Source: Tenacibaculum aquimarinum (GTDB lineage: Bacteria > Bacteroidota > Bacteroidia > Flavobacteriales > Flavobacteriaceae). From it: a stretch of 64,000 nucleotides of DNA. Below, piece by piece: positions 11,039-16,177 of the stretch. The position numbers were made by a program, and so were the translations under genes. The stretch covers positions 1 through 64,000 of the forward strand of contig NZ_JAKGSC010000001.1 in NCBI RefSeq assembly GCF_022478115.1, given 5' to 3'. A model generated the notes under the pieces. That model did no database searches, was not told where the DNA came from, and saw nothing but the letters and a program-made list of their open reading frames with translations. The first letter of the stretch is position 1. The number at the start of each line of letters is the position of its first letter.

Positions 11039-11770
11039 CTATTTAAAATAAGACAACAAATTAGCTTTTTTAGAGGCAGAAACTAAAATTTCTTTTCCGT
11101 TGGAAACAATAACACTTCCACCCTTTCCTTTTTTGTATTTTGTAATTGCATTTACGTTTACTAAATACGATTTATGAATTCTTGCAAATGTGTATTCTTT
11201 TAAAATATCTTCAAAATACTTCAACGTTTTACTGACTAATTTTTTAGAGTTTGCTAAATGAATTTCGGTATAATTATCGTCTGCTTTGCAGAAAACAATA
11301 TCGTTGATATCTAAAACTTCAAAGCCATCTTGTTGCGGAATGGTTATTTTTCCTGAAGCTGAATTTGTTATTGGCGTTAAAATTTGATGTTGTAATTGAT
11401 TCTCTTTTTCTTTAATTTCGGTAACAATATTTACGGCTTTAATCAGCTCATCTATAGAAATTGGTTTTAGTAAATAATAACTTGCATGGCTGTTTAAGGC
11501 CTCAATTGCGTAATGATCGTAAGCAGTTACAAAAACCGTTTCAAAAGTTCTGTCTTCCACTTTTTCTAACAAATCGAACGCATTTCCAAACGGCATTTCT
11601 ACGTCTAAAAACACTAAATCTAACTCGTGTTTTTCAATTAATTTATACGCATCTTCAATATTACTTGCTTCACCTAACAACGTTACATTTGGGCAATATT
11701 TACCAATATAATTACGGAGAATTTCTCTGCTTATTTGTTCGTCTTCTACTAATATTGCTTTTAGTTTCAT
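11039..11770 (-). CDS. LytTR-family response regulator
   Basis: The 243-residue product has a receiver domain (residues 1-about 120) with acidic pair E9/D10 and phospho-acceptor D56 in FLDVEMP, then a LytTR DNA-binding domain (about 142-243) with FCKADDNYTEIHL and FARIHKSYLVNVNAI. LytTR regulators bind short direct repeats spaced about two helical turns apart, and such an array lies upstream of this operon (14901-14953). Its partner is the LytS-type kinase encoded upstream. A structured RNA element fills the 106-base gap between the two genes. Confidence 0.93.
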   Translation of the reverse strand: MKLKAILVEDEQISREILRNYIGKYCPNVTLLGEASNIEDAYKLIEKHELDLVFLDVEMPFGNAFDLLEKVEDRTFETVFVTAYDHYAIEALNSHASYYLLKPISIDELIKAVNIVTEIKEKENQLQHQILTPITNSASGKITIPQQDGFEVLDINDIVFCKADDNYTEIHLANSKKLVSKTLKYFEDILKEYTFARIHKSYLVNVNAITKYKKGKGGSVIVSNGKEILVSASKKANLLSYFK

Positions 11771-11782
11771 GCTTAATTTTTT

Positions 11783-11860
11783 GAAGCTATTTCCTGCTTT
11801 CCGTTATATCTTTTTTTATGAAAAATAAAAAAAGGATGCCACTTCAATCAGGGCTAAGTT
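11783..11860 (-). ncRNA. Flavo-1-like structured repeat element, copy 1
   Basis: Reading on the minus strand it starts TTAGCCCTGATTGAAG and ends AAGCAGGAAATAGCTTC. AGC/GCT and CCTG/CAGG pair to close the structure, and a T-rich/A-rich central arm (CATCCTTTTTT with AAAAAGATATA) forms an inner hairpin. It lies in the kinase-regulator gap of the LytTR operon in the sense direction. Similar elements recur elsewhere in the window. The Flavo-1 identification is from memory. Confidence 0.65.
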
Positions 11861-11876
11861 TATTTGCTTACTTCTT

Positions 11877-14066
11877 TTACTTCTTTAAAAAAACGTCCAC
11901 TTTGGTTCCGCTTCCGTCTTTAGAAACATCAGCAATTGTTACTGATATTCGCTCTTTATACATATCGTTTAAAATGGCAATTCTGTTTTTAATAGTGCTC
12001 ATTCCTTTCGATTTTTGCTTCAACTGATTTTTAGTTTTTAACGCTTGCGATTGCTTTCTTCCAATTCCGTTATCTTCAATTGAAATCTGAAGTGTTTCAG
12101 CATCTTTTTGAGCTATAGAAATAGATAAATTTCCTTTTTCTTTACGGTAACGTAAACCATGCCAAATGGCATTTTCAATATATGGTTGCAACAACATTGG
12201 CGGAATTGAAAATTGGTCTAAATCAATATTTTTATCCACATTAATTTGATAATCGAACTTGTCTTTAAAACGATTATGCTCTAATTTCACATACAATTCC
12301 AACAGCTCAATTTCTTTTGTAAACGGAATAAAATCTTCATCAGAATTCTCTAAAACAGAACGCATTAATACCGAAAATTCAGATAAATATCGATTTGCAT
12401 TTCGCTCATCATTTACTGCAATAAAACTATTTACTGAGTTTAAAGCATTAAAAATAAAATGCGGATTCATTTGTGAGCGCATCGATTTTAATGCCAATAA
12501 GTTATTTGCAAGCTTTTGTTGCTTTGTGGTTCTAAACATAAAATACGCCAACAAACTCATCAATAAAAAACCAGCAATTAACGAGTAAATTATGTATTGT
12601 TGTCGCTTATTACTTTCTTGGGTAAGTTGCTGATCTTTATACGCTAAACTTATTTTACTTTTATTTAATTCTTTGTCTTTCTCCAGGCTAGAAATTCTGT
12701 TTTGGTTGTCAGAAATCTTTTTAGAAAAACGTTTTGTCTGTTGAATTTCCTGTTGTTTTCTCACATAGTCTTCATCAACCAACTTTACATATTCTTTGTA
12801 ATTCTTTAACGCTTCTGCATCATTTCCAACAGTTGCAAAAGCTTCAGAAATTCTTCGAGTTGCGTCTTTTTCCACTTCAAAATCGCCTTCTTTTTTTGCT
12901 TCACTTTTACTCTTTTTAAAATAACTAATTGCAGCAGGATATTCTTCTTTTAACAAATACGCATTTCCAATTTTATAGTTTATTTTTTGCGTATTTATAG
13001 AGTCTTTATTTATTGCAACTGGAGCTTCTAATTCTAAACTTTCAATTTGTTCTGCTTCTTCTAAAGTTTGCTGACGTAGCTTAATTTCATCATCATACCT
13101 ACTAGATTTATTGTAATAATCTGCTACTCTTTCTTGCTCTTTTAAAGAACGTTTTTTGTTTTCTTTAGAAGCTAAATCCAATGAGTTTTTAAACAATGTT
13201 TCCGCTTCAATAGTATTACCAAGATTTGCAGAAACCTCTGCTAATTTTGAATTTAAATCCGTAATTTTTGGTGTTACTAAATTTTTCTTTGCAACATTTA
13301 ATGCCGTTTGATAGTGCGTTTTTGCTTGTGCAAATTTTTGCTGAGCCAAATACACATCACCCAAACCTTCATTCACCACAATCACCTGATAACTAGTTAA
13401 TTTACTATTTAAAAGTGTTTTATAGTTTTGCTCGCTGTCTTTGTATTTTTTAAACAAAAATTTATTTTTAGCCAACTGCAAACGCGTATCTACTTTGTCA
13501 TTTAAGCCAAGTGAAATCGTATAATTTTCTATCGCTAAATCATATTGTTTCCAGTACGAATACACATCTCCTAATATTTTATAAGCAGTTGCATTTTTAT
13601 CTTTAGCATTGTTGTTTTTTAAAGCTTTAGTTATAAATGAAAGACTTTTATCAATATCTTTTTTCTTATAGAAATCAGCCGAATCTAATAAATGAGTTTG
13701 ATTTACAACTCTAGACTTAGACACATATTTAGACTTTCTTTTTTGTGGAAATCCTTCCACCAAAATCTTAACATCTTCGTCTGACTTTATTGTATAACGA
13801 ACTGTTTCAAAATCTGGATGACTAACTATTAACTCATCATTTATATTGGCTTTTACTTTATAAATCCCATTAAAATCGGCAAATGAAGTTCCAAAACCAT
13901 TTACCTTAACCTCGGCATCTTTAATAGTATTGTTATATTCTTTGTCTACAACCCTTACTTTAACTATAAAGGATTTTGAATTTGATATTGCTTCATTTTC
14001 TTGCGAAAACAAAGAAAAAACAACTCCAAAAAGGAATATAAAAAGTATGTTAATTTGTTTACTCAT
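11877..14066 (-). CDS. LytS-type sensor histidine kinase with TPR and carboxypeptidase-regulatory-like domains
   Basis: The 729-residue protein has a signal peptide (about 1-21), a carboxypeptidase-D regulatory-like beta domain (about 31-105), several TPR units (about 125-430) and a coiled coil. One membrane helix (about 490-512) leads to a cytoplasmic His_kinase domain with SQMNPHFIFNALNS (phospho-acceptor H536) and a HATPase_c domain with DNGIGRKQS. The sensor half should be periplasmic, although TPR kinases of this class often have uncertain topology. It overlaps the stop of the upstream zinc-ribbon protein gene by one base (TAATG), so the pair is translationally coupled. Confidence 0.9.
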   Translation of the reverse strand: MSKQINILFIFLFGVVFSLFSQENEAISNSKSFIVKVRVVDKEYNNTIKDAEVKVNGFGTSFADFNGIYKVKANINDELIVSHPDFETVRYTIKSDEDVKILVEGFPQKRKSKYVSKSRVVNQTHLLDSADFYKKKDIDKSLSFITKALKNNNAKDKNATAYKILGDVYSYWKQYDLAIENYTISLGLNDKVDTRLQLAKNKFLFKKYKDSEQNYKTLLNSKLTSYQVIVVNEGLGDVYLAQQKFAQAKTHYQTALNVAKKNLVTPKITDLNSKLAEVSANLGNTIEAETLFKNSLDLASKENKKRSLKEQERVADYYNKSSRYDDEIKLRQQTLEEAEQIESLELEAPVAINKDSINTQKINYKIGNAYLLKEEYPAAISYFKKSKSEAKKEGDFEVEKDATRRISEAFATVGNDAEALKNYKEYVKLVDEDYVRKQQEIQQTKRFSKKISDNQNRISSLEKDKELNKSKISLAYKDQQLTQESNKRQQYIIYSLIAGFLLMSLLAYFMFRTTKQQKLANNLLALKSMRSQMNPHFIFNALNSVNSFIAVNDERNANRYLSEFSVLMRSVLENSDEDFIPFTKEIELLELYVKLEHNRFKDKFDYQINVDKNIDLDQFSIPPMLLQPYIENAIWHGLRYRKEKGNLSISIAQKDAETLQISIEDNGIGRKQSQALKTKNQLKQKSKGMSTIKNRIAILNDMYKERISVTIADVSKDGSGTKVDVFLKK

Positions 14067-14800
14067 TAGTATCTTTTATGCTCTTTACTCCTAAAAATAT
14101 TTAAACATCTTTGAAAAAAATTAGGTTTTTCTGCAACAGCAATCATTCCTACAGTTACAACTTCCCCTAAAATACTATCATCTTCTTCCATTAGAATTAC
14201 AAGTGGCTTTTTAATTGATAAAATATCAATTTCTTGAGTCTTTAAACCTATAAAAGAAACAACTAAGATATGAGACTTTCTTTTTTTATTGGGTATTTCT
14301 ATAGAAAAATTTCCATCAAAATCTGTTTCTACCCCAATAGTTGTTCCTTTTAAAATAATTGCTGCACCTGGTAAAGGCCCAGTAATATCTTTAATAGTTC
14401 CTTTTATTAAAATACTATCCGTCTTAACTTCTTTATCTAAAAAAACAGCCTCAATAGTTGGATTTACTTTTTTAAAATGATGACTTTCAACCTTATTTAC
14501 CTTACCTTGAGAAAACATTGGCTCAGCACCAGATATCATGGAAATTAAAGCAAAACTTGCAGCTACTTTAGATAAATTTTTATTTTGTGGAGTTTCAATT
14601 TCTCTTTCTAATTGAGTGTTTTTAAAACGACCACATACGTTTTTACTTCCCGAAACTATACTTGTAATTTTAGCATCTGTAAGTTTTGTAAAATCGATAA
14701 CTTCCTTATTACAACTTTTACAAAATTTCCCTTTTTGAACAGGACTCATTTTAGCCCAGTTTTCATGACATGGTTTTGGAATAGATAATTGATATTTCAT
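14066..14800 (-). CDS. Membrane protein with N-terminal Cys cluster and carboxypeptidase-regulatory-like domain
   Basis: The start at 14800 is chosen because the peptide from there begins MKYQLSIPKPCHENW, typical of a Bacteroidetes family; the longer frame adds 12 unlikely residues. C11, C27, C30 and C56 (KFCKSC, NVCGRF) may form a zinc site on the cytoplasmic side. A weak membrane segment (about 77-95) leads to a CarboxypepD-regulatory-like beta domain (about 125-210: IKGTIKD, GAAIILKGTTIG, TDFDGNFSIEIPN). The same type of domain opens the adjacent kinase, so the two proteins may interact. That partnership is inference from gene order and the TAATG coupling. Length is 244 residues. Confidence 0.75.
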   Translation of the reverse strand: MKYQLSIPKPCHENWAKMSPVQKGKFCKSCNKEVIDFTKLTDAKITSIVSGSKNVCGRFKNTQLEREIETPQNKNLSKVAASFALISMISGAEPMFSQGKVNKVESHHFKKVNPTIEAVFLDKEVKTDSILIKGTIKDITGPLPGAAIILKGTTIGVETDFDGNFSIEIPNKKRKSHILVVSFIGLKTQEIDILSIKKPLVILMEEDDSILGEVVTVGMIAVAEKPNFFQRCLNIFRSKEHKRY

Positions 14801-14900
14801 AATAATTAGTTTTAATTTCTTGGTAAACTTAAACACAAAAAACCAACCAAAAAAACGTGAAAACCCAATAAAATCAATCTAAACAAGCTTAAAAACATAG

Positions 14901-14953
14901 TTTACTCAATTCTTATTCTCGTTCACTCATTCAAAAGCACACTTTACTCATTC
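14901..14953. promoter_or_regulatory. Three direct repeats at 21-bp spacing, probable LytTR binding array
   Basis: TTTACTCAATT (14901-14911), TTCACTCATTC (14922-14932) and TTTACTCATTC (14943-14953) begin exactly 21 bp apart. LytTR regulators such as AgrA, ComE and AlgR bind short direct repeats spaced about two turns apart. The array is midway between the divergent starts at 14800 and 15047, so it could control both the LytTR operon and the VWA gene. Confidence 0.65.
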
Positions 14954-14973
14954 TAGTTTTTTTAATAAAAAAG

Positions 14974-14997
14974 TTGACGGTAGTTTTATACCATCAA
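14974..14997. promoter_or_regulatory. Imperfect inverted repeat upstream of the VWA gene
   Basis: TTGACGGTA (14974-14982) and TACCATCAA (14989-14997) match at 8 of 9 positions around a 6-base spacer, 50 bases before the start codon. It could be an operator or a 5' transcript hairpin. Confidence 0.4.
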
Positions 14998-15046: not shown

Positions 15047-16177
15047 ATGAAAACATCAGTAAAAACATTCGTCCTTTCGTTCCTTTTCTTAGGATTAATT
15101 TCTTGTGGAAATGCAAATGCATCTGAGAAAAATCCGAAGAAAAAAAACACCATTAAAGTTGCTTTATTATTAGATACAAGCGGAAGCATGAGCGGATTAA
15201 TAAACCAGGCAAAAGCGCAATTATGGGAAATTGTAAACGAACTTTCATATGCAAAATGCGGCAACGAAAAACCTAATTTAGAAATTGCTTTGTATGAATA
15301 TGGAAACGACAGAATATCTTCGGAAAGTGGTTTTATCAGAAAGGTTTTACACTTTAGTACAGACTTAGATGAAATCTCAGAACGATTATTTTCTTTAACT
15401 ACAAACGGCGGAAGCGAGTATTGTGGTAAAGTTATTCAGACTTCAATAAACGAGTTAGAATGGGGTAAAAATAAAGACGATTTAAAAATGATTTTTATTG
15501 CTGGTAACGAACCTTTTACGCAAGGAAATGTATTTTACAAAGACGCAATTACCAATGCTAAAGAAAACGATGTTGTTGTAAATACTATTTTTTGTGGTGA
15601 TTATAGATCTGGAGTTTCAGGAATGTGGCAAGATGGAGCAACGCATGGAAATGGAGATTATATGACTATAAACCACAATAAAAAAATTGTACATGTTGTA
15701 ACTCCTTATGATGATGAAATTATCATCTTAAATAAGCGTTTAAACAAAACTTATGTTTATTATGGTAATAAGGGTGCTTCAAAATTTGCAAGTCAATACA
15801 CACAAGATATGAACGCCGAAACATTAGACGAAGTTGTGGTTGTTAAACGTGCAGTTAGTAAAAGTTCTCGTTTGTATAATAATAAAAACTGGGATTTGGT
15901 GGATGCTGAAAAAGAAGCTGACTTTAATTACAACAAGATAAAAAAGAAACAATTACCTAAAGAATTGCAAGGTAAATCTACTGAAGAAATAAAAAAATAT
16001 GTAAAATCAAAAAGTGAAGAACGTGCTAAAATTCAACAAGAAATAAAAGAATTAGATAAAAAACGTAGAGCTTTTGTTACTAAAAAAAAGCTAGAAAAAA
16101 CGAACAAAGATGAGCTAAATAGCGTTATGATTAACGCCATAAAAAAACAAGCGAAAAAGAAAAGTTACACTTGGTAA
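15047..16177 (+). CDS. VWA-domain lipoprotein
   Basis: The 376-residue product has a lipoprotein signal with lipobox ending at C20 (LISCGN). A von Willebrand A domain follows (about 35-230) with a complete MIDAS start D43-T-S-G-S47 and conserved acidic and glycine positions later (TTNGGSEYCG, FIAGNEPF). The last 100 residues form a highly charged Lys/Glu coiled region. Homologues are annotated as VWA proteins with no assigned substrate. It is divergent from the kinase/LytTR operon and shares its upstream region, including the 21-bp repeat array, so control by that regulator is plausible. Confidence 0.85.
   Translation: MKTSVKTFVLSFLFLGLISCGNANASEKNPKKKNTIKVALLLDTSGSMSGLINQAKAQLWEIVNELSYAKCGNEKPNLEIALYEYGNDRISSESGFIRKVLHFSTDLDEISERLFSLTTNGGSEYCGKVIQTSINELEWGKNKDDLKMIFIAGNEPFTQGNVFYKDAITNAKENDVVVNTIFCGDYRSGVSGMWQDGATHGNGDYMTINHNKKIVHVVTPYDDEIIILNKRLNKTYVYYGNKGASKFASQYTQDMNAETLDEVVVVKRAVSKSSRLYNNKNWDLVDAEKEADFNYNKIKKKQLPKELQGKSTEEIKKYVKSKSEERAKIQQEIKELDKKRRAFVTKKKLEKTNKDELNSVMINAIKKQAKKKSYTW

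Follow-up and report, generated by a model that had tools for sequence, protein, structure and literature searches.

A three-unit direct-repeat array as the probable operator of a LytTR regulator between two divergent promoters in Tenacibaculum aquimarinum

Three described systems offer the closest comparisons for the locus reported here. In Escherichia coli, the LytTR regulator YpdB, known from the promoter PyhjX, is paired with a kinase of the seven-transmembrane (7-TM) LytS type. BtsR (YehT) of E. coli recognizes ACC(A/G)-CTCA-like repeats, which resemble TTCACTCA and have about the same pitch as the array described below. In Staphylococcus aureus, the divergent agr promoters P2 and P3 serve the regulator operon and RNAIII. 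A usual place for a LytTR activator is directly upstream of the −33 region.

Counted on the oligonucleotide printed in the excerpted source, the YpdB site is a direct repeat of GGCATTTCAT with a 21-bp pitch, and the excerpt describes its sites A and B as bound in sequence (PMC4847170). The BtsR target in E. coli is given in the source's excerpt as a pyruvate transporter (PMC10653868). In the agr intergenic region, the direct repeats bound by AgrA are placed by the available text immediately in front of P2 and of P3 (PMC4227749). Among the matches listed in a search of the open-access literature, we found no operator for a LytTR regulator of the Bacteroidetes.

A repeat array beside a LytTR two-component operon

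We analyzed a 64-kb stretch of the T. aquimarinum genome, referred to as the window (64,000 nucleotides). A first-pass annotation had proposed three direct repeats at exactly 21 bp between a LytTR operon and a VWA lipoprotein gene. Both the setting and the repeats were confirmed in the letters, where three YTYACTCAWTY units start at 14901, 14922 and 14943. The features are:

11039-11770, minus strand: LytTR response regulator, presumed array binder (PF04397, 4.4e-21; PF00072, 2.1e-18)
11877-14066, minus strand: TPR histidine kinase with a LytS-type kinase domain (PF06580, 2.5e-21)
14066-14797, minus strand: CarboxypepD_reg-like protein, first operon gene (PF13715, 5.1e-16)
14901-14911, plus strand: repeat unit 1, TTTACTCAATT, nearest to the operon, kept in orthologues
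14922-14932, plus strand: repeat unit 2, TTCACTCATTC, kept in orthologues
14943-14953, plus strand: repeat unit 3, TTTACTCATTC, nearest to the VWA promoter, the most conserved unit
15047-16177, plus strand: VWA-domain lipoprotein, divergent gene and probable target (PF00092, 3.6e-06)

The VWA product was called a lipoprotein by eye from its N-terminus. We took the ATG at 14797 as the first start codon of the operon because the operon −7 box lies at 14824-14831; an alternative GTG at 14836 is upstream of that box.

The regulator has a LytTR DNA-binding domain behind a receiver (PF04397, 75.4 bits, cut-off 22.6; PF00072, 66.9 bits, cut-off 30.2). The phospho-acceptor pocket of the receiver (D10, E11, D56, T82, K102) was invariant in eight aligned regulators. 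The signature FARIHKS, in a region conserved in the eight, is the counterpart of the FhRhHRS signature of LytTR regulators printed in the available part of PMC4227749. No residue-to-base code was readable from the eight aligned regulators. The best NCBIfam match of the regulator was BtsR (NF008677), and its assignment as a BtsR equivalog was rejected at 116.7 bits against a cut-off of 246.

The system resembles that of YpdB in combining a LytTR regulator with a LytS-type kinase, which here is a TPR kinase rather than a 7-TM one. The array has the same 21-bp pitch as the YpdB site but other letters, and three units instead of two. With three 11-bp units at this pitch, it has the layout of LytTR operators, in which at least two short direct repeats lie about two helical turns apart.

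We observed two further features in the operon. The kinase N-terminus (in 11877-14066) looks CarboxypepD_reg-like by eye (VRVVDKEYNNTIKDAEVKVNGFG), where Pfam gave no match, and a domain of this kind also occurs in several candidate targets. A Flavo-1 RNA (RF01705, 78 bits, gathering 42) occupies 11786-11859 in the gap that separates the kinase gene from the regulator gene, on the same (minus) strand as the operon; among 10 other loci scanned, L044 and L045 had copies elsewhere in the neighbourhood.

A three-unit pattern composed after the array had been seen (≤3 mismatches) matched once in the 64-kb window and in 0 of 100 dinucleotide shuffles. A letter-blind test, confined to the 246-bp intergenic stretch, allowed every pitch between 15 and 30 bp and scored the best self-match of three 11-mer copies. 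The self-match of 27/33 was equalled in one of 300 mononucleotide shuffles, which is weaker evidence than the pattern test. We take the array as real because it is conserved in orthologues, which is the stronger proof and decides the matter.

Conservation and promoter geometry

We searched 59 genomes, the own genome included, for the regulator. It was 77–93% identical in 18 genomes besides the own one; matches in the other 40 genomes, some of them incomplete, were at most 53% identical among the matches listed. The kinase adjoined the regulator in 18/18 fetched loci. The window and these 18 orthologous loci (L042-L059) served as the defining set, and the array was found in 19/19. The triple-unit score beat every dinucleotide shuffle in each of the 19 orthologous intergenic stretches, that of the window among them (300 shuffles per stretch, 60 for the longest, L055). 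Mean pairwise identity in these loci was 0.67–0.80 for the units versus 0.34 and 0.46 for the spacers, and the conserved part of the second spacer is an A run after unit 2.

A weight matrix built from the 19 training loci was used to score held-out loci. The scan yielded 80 named loci, which were the best among 570 confirmed, with regulator identities of 70–93%, from Polaribacter, Tenacibaculum, Kordia, Winogradskyella, Maribacter, Cellulophaga, Zobellia and others. Excluding three without upstream DNA (L206, L219, L272) and eight that share a contig with training loci left 69. The array was the best match by at least 8 bits in 69/69 and scored above 15 bits in 68/69, and the opposite strand never scored above 11.8 bits. 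Unit 3 reached a mean pairwise identity of 0.75 in the 61 non-Kordia held-out loci, versus 0.31 and 0.38 for the two spacers. The first-pass annotation had suggested looking for the array beside orthologous Flavobacteriaceae operons, and it was present in every defining and held-out locus; these loci are related to one another, and the counts are not independent events. The recognition sequence proposed there, YTYACTCATTC, was right, with unit 3 as its most constrained copy.

The Bacteroidetes −7 consensus TAnnTTTG is reported, in the excerpted source, as confirmed in Flavobacterium johnsoniae, where the −33 motif was not confirmed (PMC7366714). Predicted promoter elements lie on both sides of the array:

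14824-14831, minus strand: −7 box of the regulator operon promoter, TAAGTTTA, 68–69 bp from the array in 19/19 loci
14957-14963, plus strand: T tract near position −33 of the plus-strand promoter (mean pairwise identity 0.77, 61 held-out loci)
14981-14988, plus strand: −7 box of the VWA promoter, TAGTTTTA, with unit 3 starting exactly 38 bp before it

Unit 3 lies directly upstream of the T tract of this predicted promoter, as LytTR repeats lie just upstream of −35/−33 elements. The −7 box of the divergent gene was 38 bp from the start of unit 3 in 19/19 defining and 59/69 held-out loci. When offsets 12 to 69 were scanned in the 19 loci, 38 had the box in all of them and the next best, 27, in three. 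Offsets other than 38 had a −7 box in a mean of 0.32 of the 69 held-out loci. Among the ten misses, four have GANNTTTA and two CANNTTTA at 38 bp (boxes starting with G or C). The remaining four are L207 (box at 37), L210, L235 and L273, and in none of them does the divergent slot contain a 120-codon ORF that begins within 330 bp.

On the operon side, the −7 box was 69 bp from the array edge in 16 defining loci and 68 bp in three. The spacing was 68–69 bp in 59 of the 69 held-out loci and 67 bp in one, and the box was not found in one. In Kordia it was 79 bp in 8/8 loci, exactly 10 bp (one helical turn) over 69. Mean identity of the stretch between array and operon promoter was 0.34 in the 61 non-Kordia loci, where we estimate ~0.28 to be expected from composition; this stretch keeps its length far better than its sequence. 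The four loci without a divergent gene (L207, L210, L235, L273) keep the array at 20.8–38.6 bits and the operon spacing at 69 bp, an argument that the array acts on the operon too.

The first-pass annotation had predicted divergent control and autoregulation. Divergent control gains support from the fixed 38-bp distance to the plus-strand −7 box and from an unlinked site in the own genome with the same geometry, which was found without asking for a −7 box. The fixed distance of 68–69 (or 79) bp to the operon −7 box, together with the four loci without a divergent gene, points to autoregulation. Relative to the divergent gene, the array has the position of an activator site; relative to the operon it lies farther upstream, and feedback there may be of either sign.

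We used BLAST against four seeds to assign the genes in the divergent slot of 88 nonredundant loci (19 plus 77 minus 8), and applied Pfam to the window VWA and to representatives. The first plus-strand gene was VWA in 41 loci, SIMPL/DUF541 in 36 (21 plus 15 of a longer subfamily) and DUF4349 in three, and eight loci had none. The divergent gene changes identity while promoter and array stay. VWA, named as the divergent target, is only one of several genes in this slot.

In L049, L054, L213 and L216, which have no divergent gene, the array promoter leads into a conserved, terminator-ended stretch without a 60-codon ORF. Rfam gave no family at gathering score for this stretch, with chance-level matches only. 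A model of it (R3) matched in 8 of 146 genomes; six matches were relics and two (G095, G152) were the 3' end of a SIMPL gene. From these matches we read the stretch as the relic of a deleted SIMPL gene and set aside a small RNA reading. L294 (which looks alike), L295, L298 and L299 are similar relic loci, and the named ones are Tenacibaculum. Array, promoter, SIMPL 3'-end relic and terminator remain in the relic loci, which predicts a ~110-nt transcript without an ORF.

Sites elsewhere and the candidate regulon

Scanning the own genome for pairs of units at 21 bp, as the first-pass annotation had suggested, without a promoter requirement, gave one further pair, at C10:98582-98609. A perfect TAGTTTTG lies 38 bp after the start of its second unit. 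The ORF behind it (204 aa) begins with a signal-like N-terminus and gave no match in Pfam. A composite pattern (≤3 mismatches) had 8 matches in the own genome versus 11 for its reversed control. We kept as credible the matches with 0 and 1 mismatch (the C10 site and the window array) and C5:1212242.

Pairs at 21 bp alone mixed true sites with noise. We left out of the regulon low-complexity TTACTCA runs in G025 and G052. Also left out was a near-identical 28-mer (like TTACTCATAATTACTTTGCGCTCACTCA) that recurs in at least eight genomes (e.g. G016:C1:830622, G004:C22:44315, G019:C1:20639) and contains two TYACTCA at a 21-bp pitch. Of its versions, the one in G025 alone fits the composite pattern at two mismatches, and the 28-mer may be conserved coding sequence.

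Around the C10 site, in L062:2631-5973 (~96.6-100.0 kb of C10), orphan genes follow one another, separated by five copies (61–74% alike) of a repeat of at least 43 nt with an AACG core; the arrangement resembles gene cassettes. One repeat copy has the second own-genome array at its edge, and the same combination was seen by eye in G014, G024 and G029. The element pattern around the C10 site showed no genome-wide excess (24 matches versus 42 for the reversed control).

We ran a sequence-only model of the 19 loci (R1) and a reversed decoy (R2) on the 59 genomes. Beyond the training loci, R1 found 17 sites of at least 26 bits. Sixteen of these were in 7 of the 19 regulator-bearing genomes, which make up 40% of the bases searched, and one was in G014. 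The decoy had none of at least 26 bits (best 25.6, another 24.3), the cut having been placed after the decoy's best was known. Given these decoy sites, single sites near 24–26 bits are not secure. Both models match 56/59 genomes at E 0.3, so weaker sites are indistinguishable from background. No further R1 site of at least 26 bits was found in 12 of the 19 regulator-bearing genomes.

The G014 site scored 26.0 bits, in a genome that is 84% complete and in which no regulator orthologue was detected. Weaker R1 sites were present in G001 (24.4 bits) and G024 (23.5 bits), where no close regulator orthologue was found. In G001, a complete genome, an MG2-like gene (L193) keeps a three-unit array at 24.4 bits without a close regulator orthologue found.

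Behind 14 of the 17 sites, an ATG ORF of at least 120 codons starts within ~160 bp (exceptions L138, L145 and L147). Pfam identified YfbK-type VWA with CarboxypepD_reg (G009, G012, G035), VIT with CarboxypepD_reg (G003), CarboxypepD_reg (G012), an unlinked VWA gene (G035) and DUF6146 (G015). MG2 was matched behind the own-genome site C5:1212242 (R1, 28.1 bits). By eye we recognized further DUF6146 relatives (G029, G009) and MG2 relatives (G009, G015). Sites below 26 bits had the same kinds of gene behind them: a DUF6146 relative (G005), MG2 relatives (G029, G001), a MuiA family gene (G012, 25.5 bits) and CarboxypepD_reg genes (G002, G003, G029). The products of the target genes appear to be secreted, as judged by eye from their N-termini. 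Most trans sites have two good units, whereas the operon array and the MG2 and YfbK-type sites have three. The 38-bp distance at many trans sites is not independent evidence, because the search pattern and R1 already contain the −7 box.

The own genome has eight LytTR matches. At the seven other than the window regulator, the 10-kb stretches examined contained no such array; the best score there was 10.8 bits, versus 43.6 for the window array. More distant regulators occur in G039 (49% identical) and G058 (52%). By eye, the sites at their loci L060/L061 have other letters (G039 TTCACCAAG, G058 TTCACTAAT) and retain both the pitch of 21 bp and the 38-bp spacing. The G058 site is the best R1 match of its genome, weak at 19.8 bits. 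In G047 (L063), only the 21-bp pitch is kept, by eye. L064 and L065 (G041, G038) had no array beside the operon when searched with the window array's letters only.

A model for the array and its alternatives

The array, its conservation, both fixed spacings and the extra sites are observed directly. From them, we consider it highly probable that the array is the operator of the neighbouring LytTR regulator, with activation of the divergent gene, control of its own operon and action in trans at unlinked promoters. Bound at units 2 and 3, just upstream of the −33 region, the phosphorylated regulator would activate the divergent plus-strand promoter, here that of the VWA lipoprotein. We infer this activation because unit 3 adjoins the −33 T tract, as with the AgrA repeats, and because the pitch equals that of YpdB; binding and its dependence on phosphorylation are likewise part of what we infer. 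Through unit 1, at a helically phased distance, the array would also control the regulator's own operon. In trans, the regulator would act on unlinked promoters with two or three units 38 bp before the −7 box.

Chance similarity, or a tandem remnant with no regulatory role, would fit the one shuffle in 300 that equalled the intergenic stretch in the letter-blind test, but 19/19 and 69/69 loci conserve the array in constant geometry, and we give this reading almost no weight. It is improbable, if less extremely so, that another DNA-binding protein, e.g. a LytTR paralogue, uses the array as its operator and that the place of the array next to this operon reflects control of the two-component system by that protein. 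Array-like sites in G014, G001 and G024, where no close regulator orthologue was found, speak for such a protein, as do the many LytTR paralogues in such genomes (eight LytTR matches in the own genome). However, the other seven own-genome LytTR loci lack the array in the 10-kb stretches examined, and 16 of the 17 further sites fall in the 19 regulator-bearing genomes with their 40% of the bases.

That the same array also controls the regulator's own operon seems likely to us. The constant operon-promoter distance could instead be an accident of compact shared DNA, with only the divergent promoter controlled; this reading contradicts the operon clause alone, and its odds are not additive with those of the main reading. 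It would agree with an array that abuts the divergent −33 region but lies 68–69 bp from the operon −7 box, and with trans sites that have one gene behind them. We regard it as unlikely, since the intervening stretch keeps its length and hardly its letters, differing by exactly 10 bp in Kordia, and since the four loci without a divergent gene retain the array.

Building on the neighbouring regulator as the binder, we tentatively propose a joint reading that we consider possible, though doubtful as a whole. The middle unit may be common to two overlapping dimers, such that units 2 and 3 would switch on the divergent effector while units 1 and 2 would set the operon level, providing output and feedback. 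Between families the letters would drift as the 21-bp pitch and the 38-bp distance stay. The effector would be swapped (VWA, SIMPL, DUF4349, or a decayed SIMPL relic between promoter and terminator), and the cassette-like units may carry promoters tuned to the same regulator.

The array is very probably the docking site of the regulator encoded next door. As LytTR operators go it would be of an ordinary kind, though both the operator and its candidate regulon are new. In agr there is one site per promoter, whereas here one three-unit array lies between both promoters, and the effector here is a protein gene, unlike in agr. The envelope-type proteins of the candidate regulon also differ from the pyruvate transporter targeted by BtsR.

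LytTR systems are numerous in such genomes. When F. johnsoniae was coevolved with Burkholderia thailandensis, each of five lines was mutated in a LytTR protein (FJOH_RS09515) or a histidine kinase (FJOH_RS09520), according to the excerpted report (PMC10197871). For the two-component system described here, itself unstudied, our analysis yields a recognition sequence, an exact promoter geometry and 69 further named loci. The candidate regulon comprises VWA, CarboxypepD-like, SIMPL and MG2 proteins, several without an assigned function, and the locus would provide a clean case of one operator feeding two divergent promoters.
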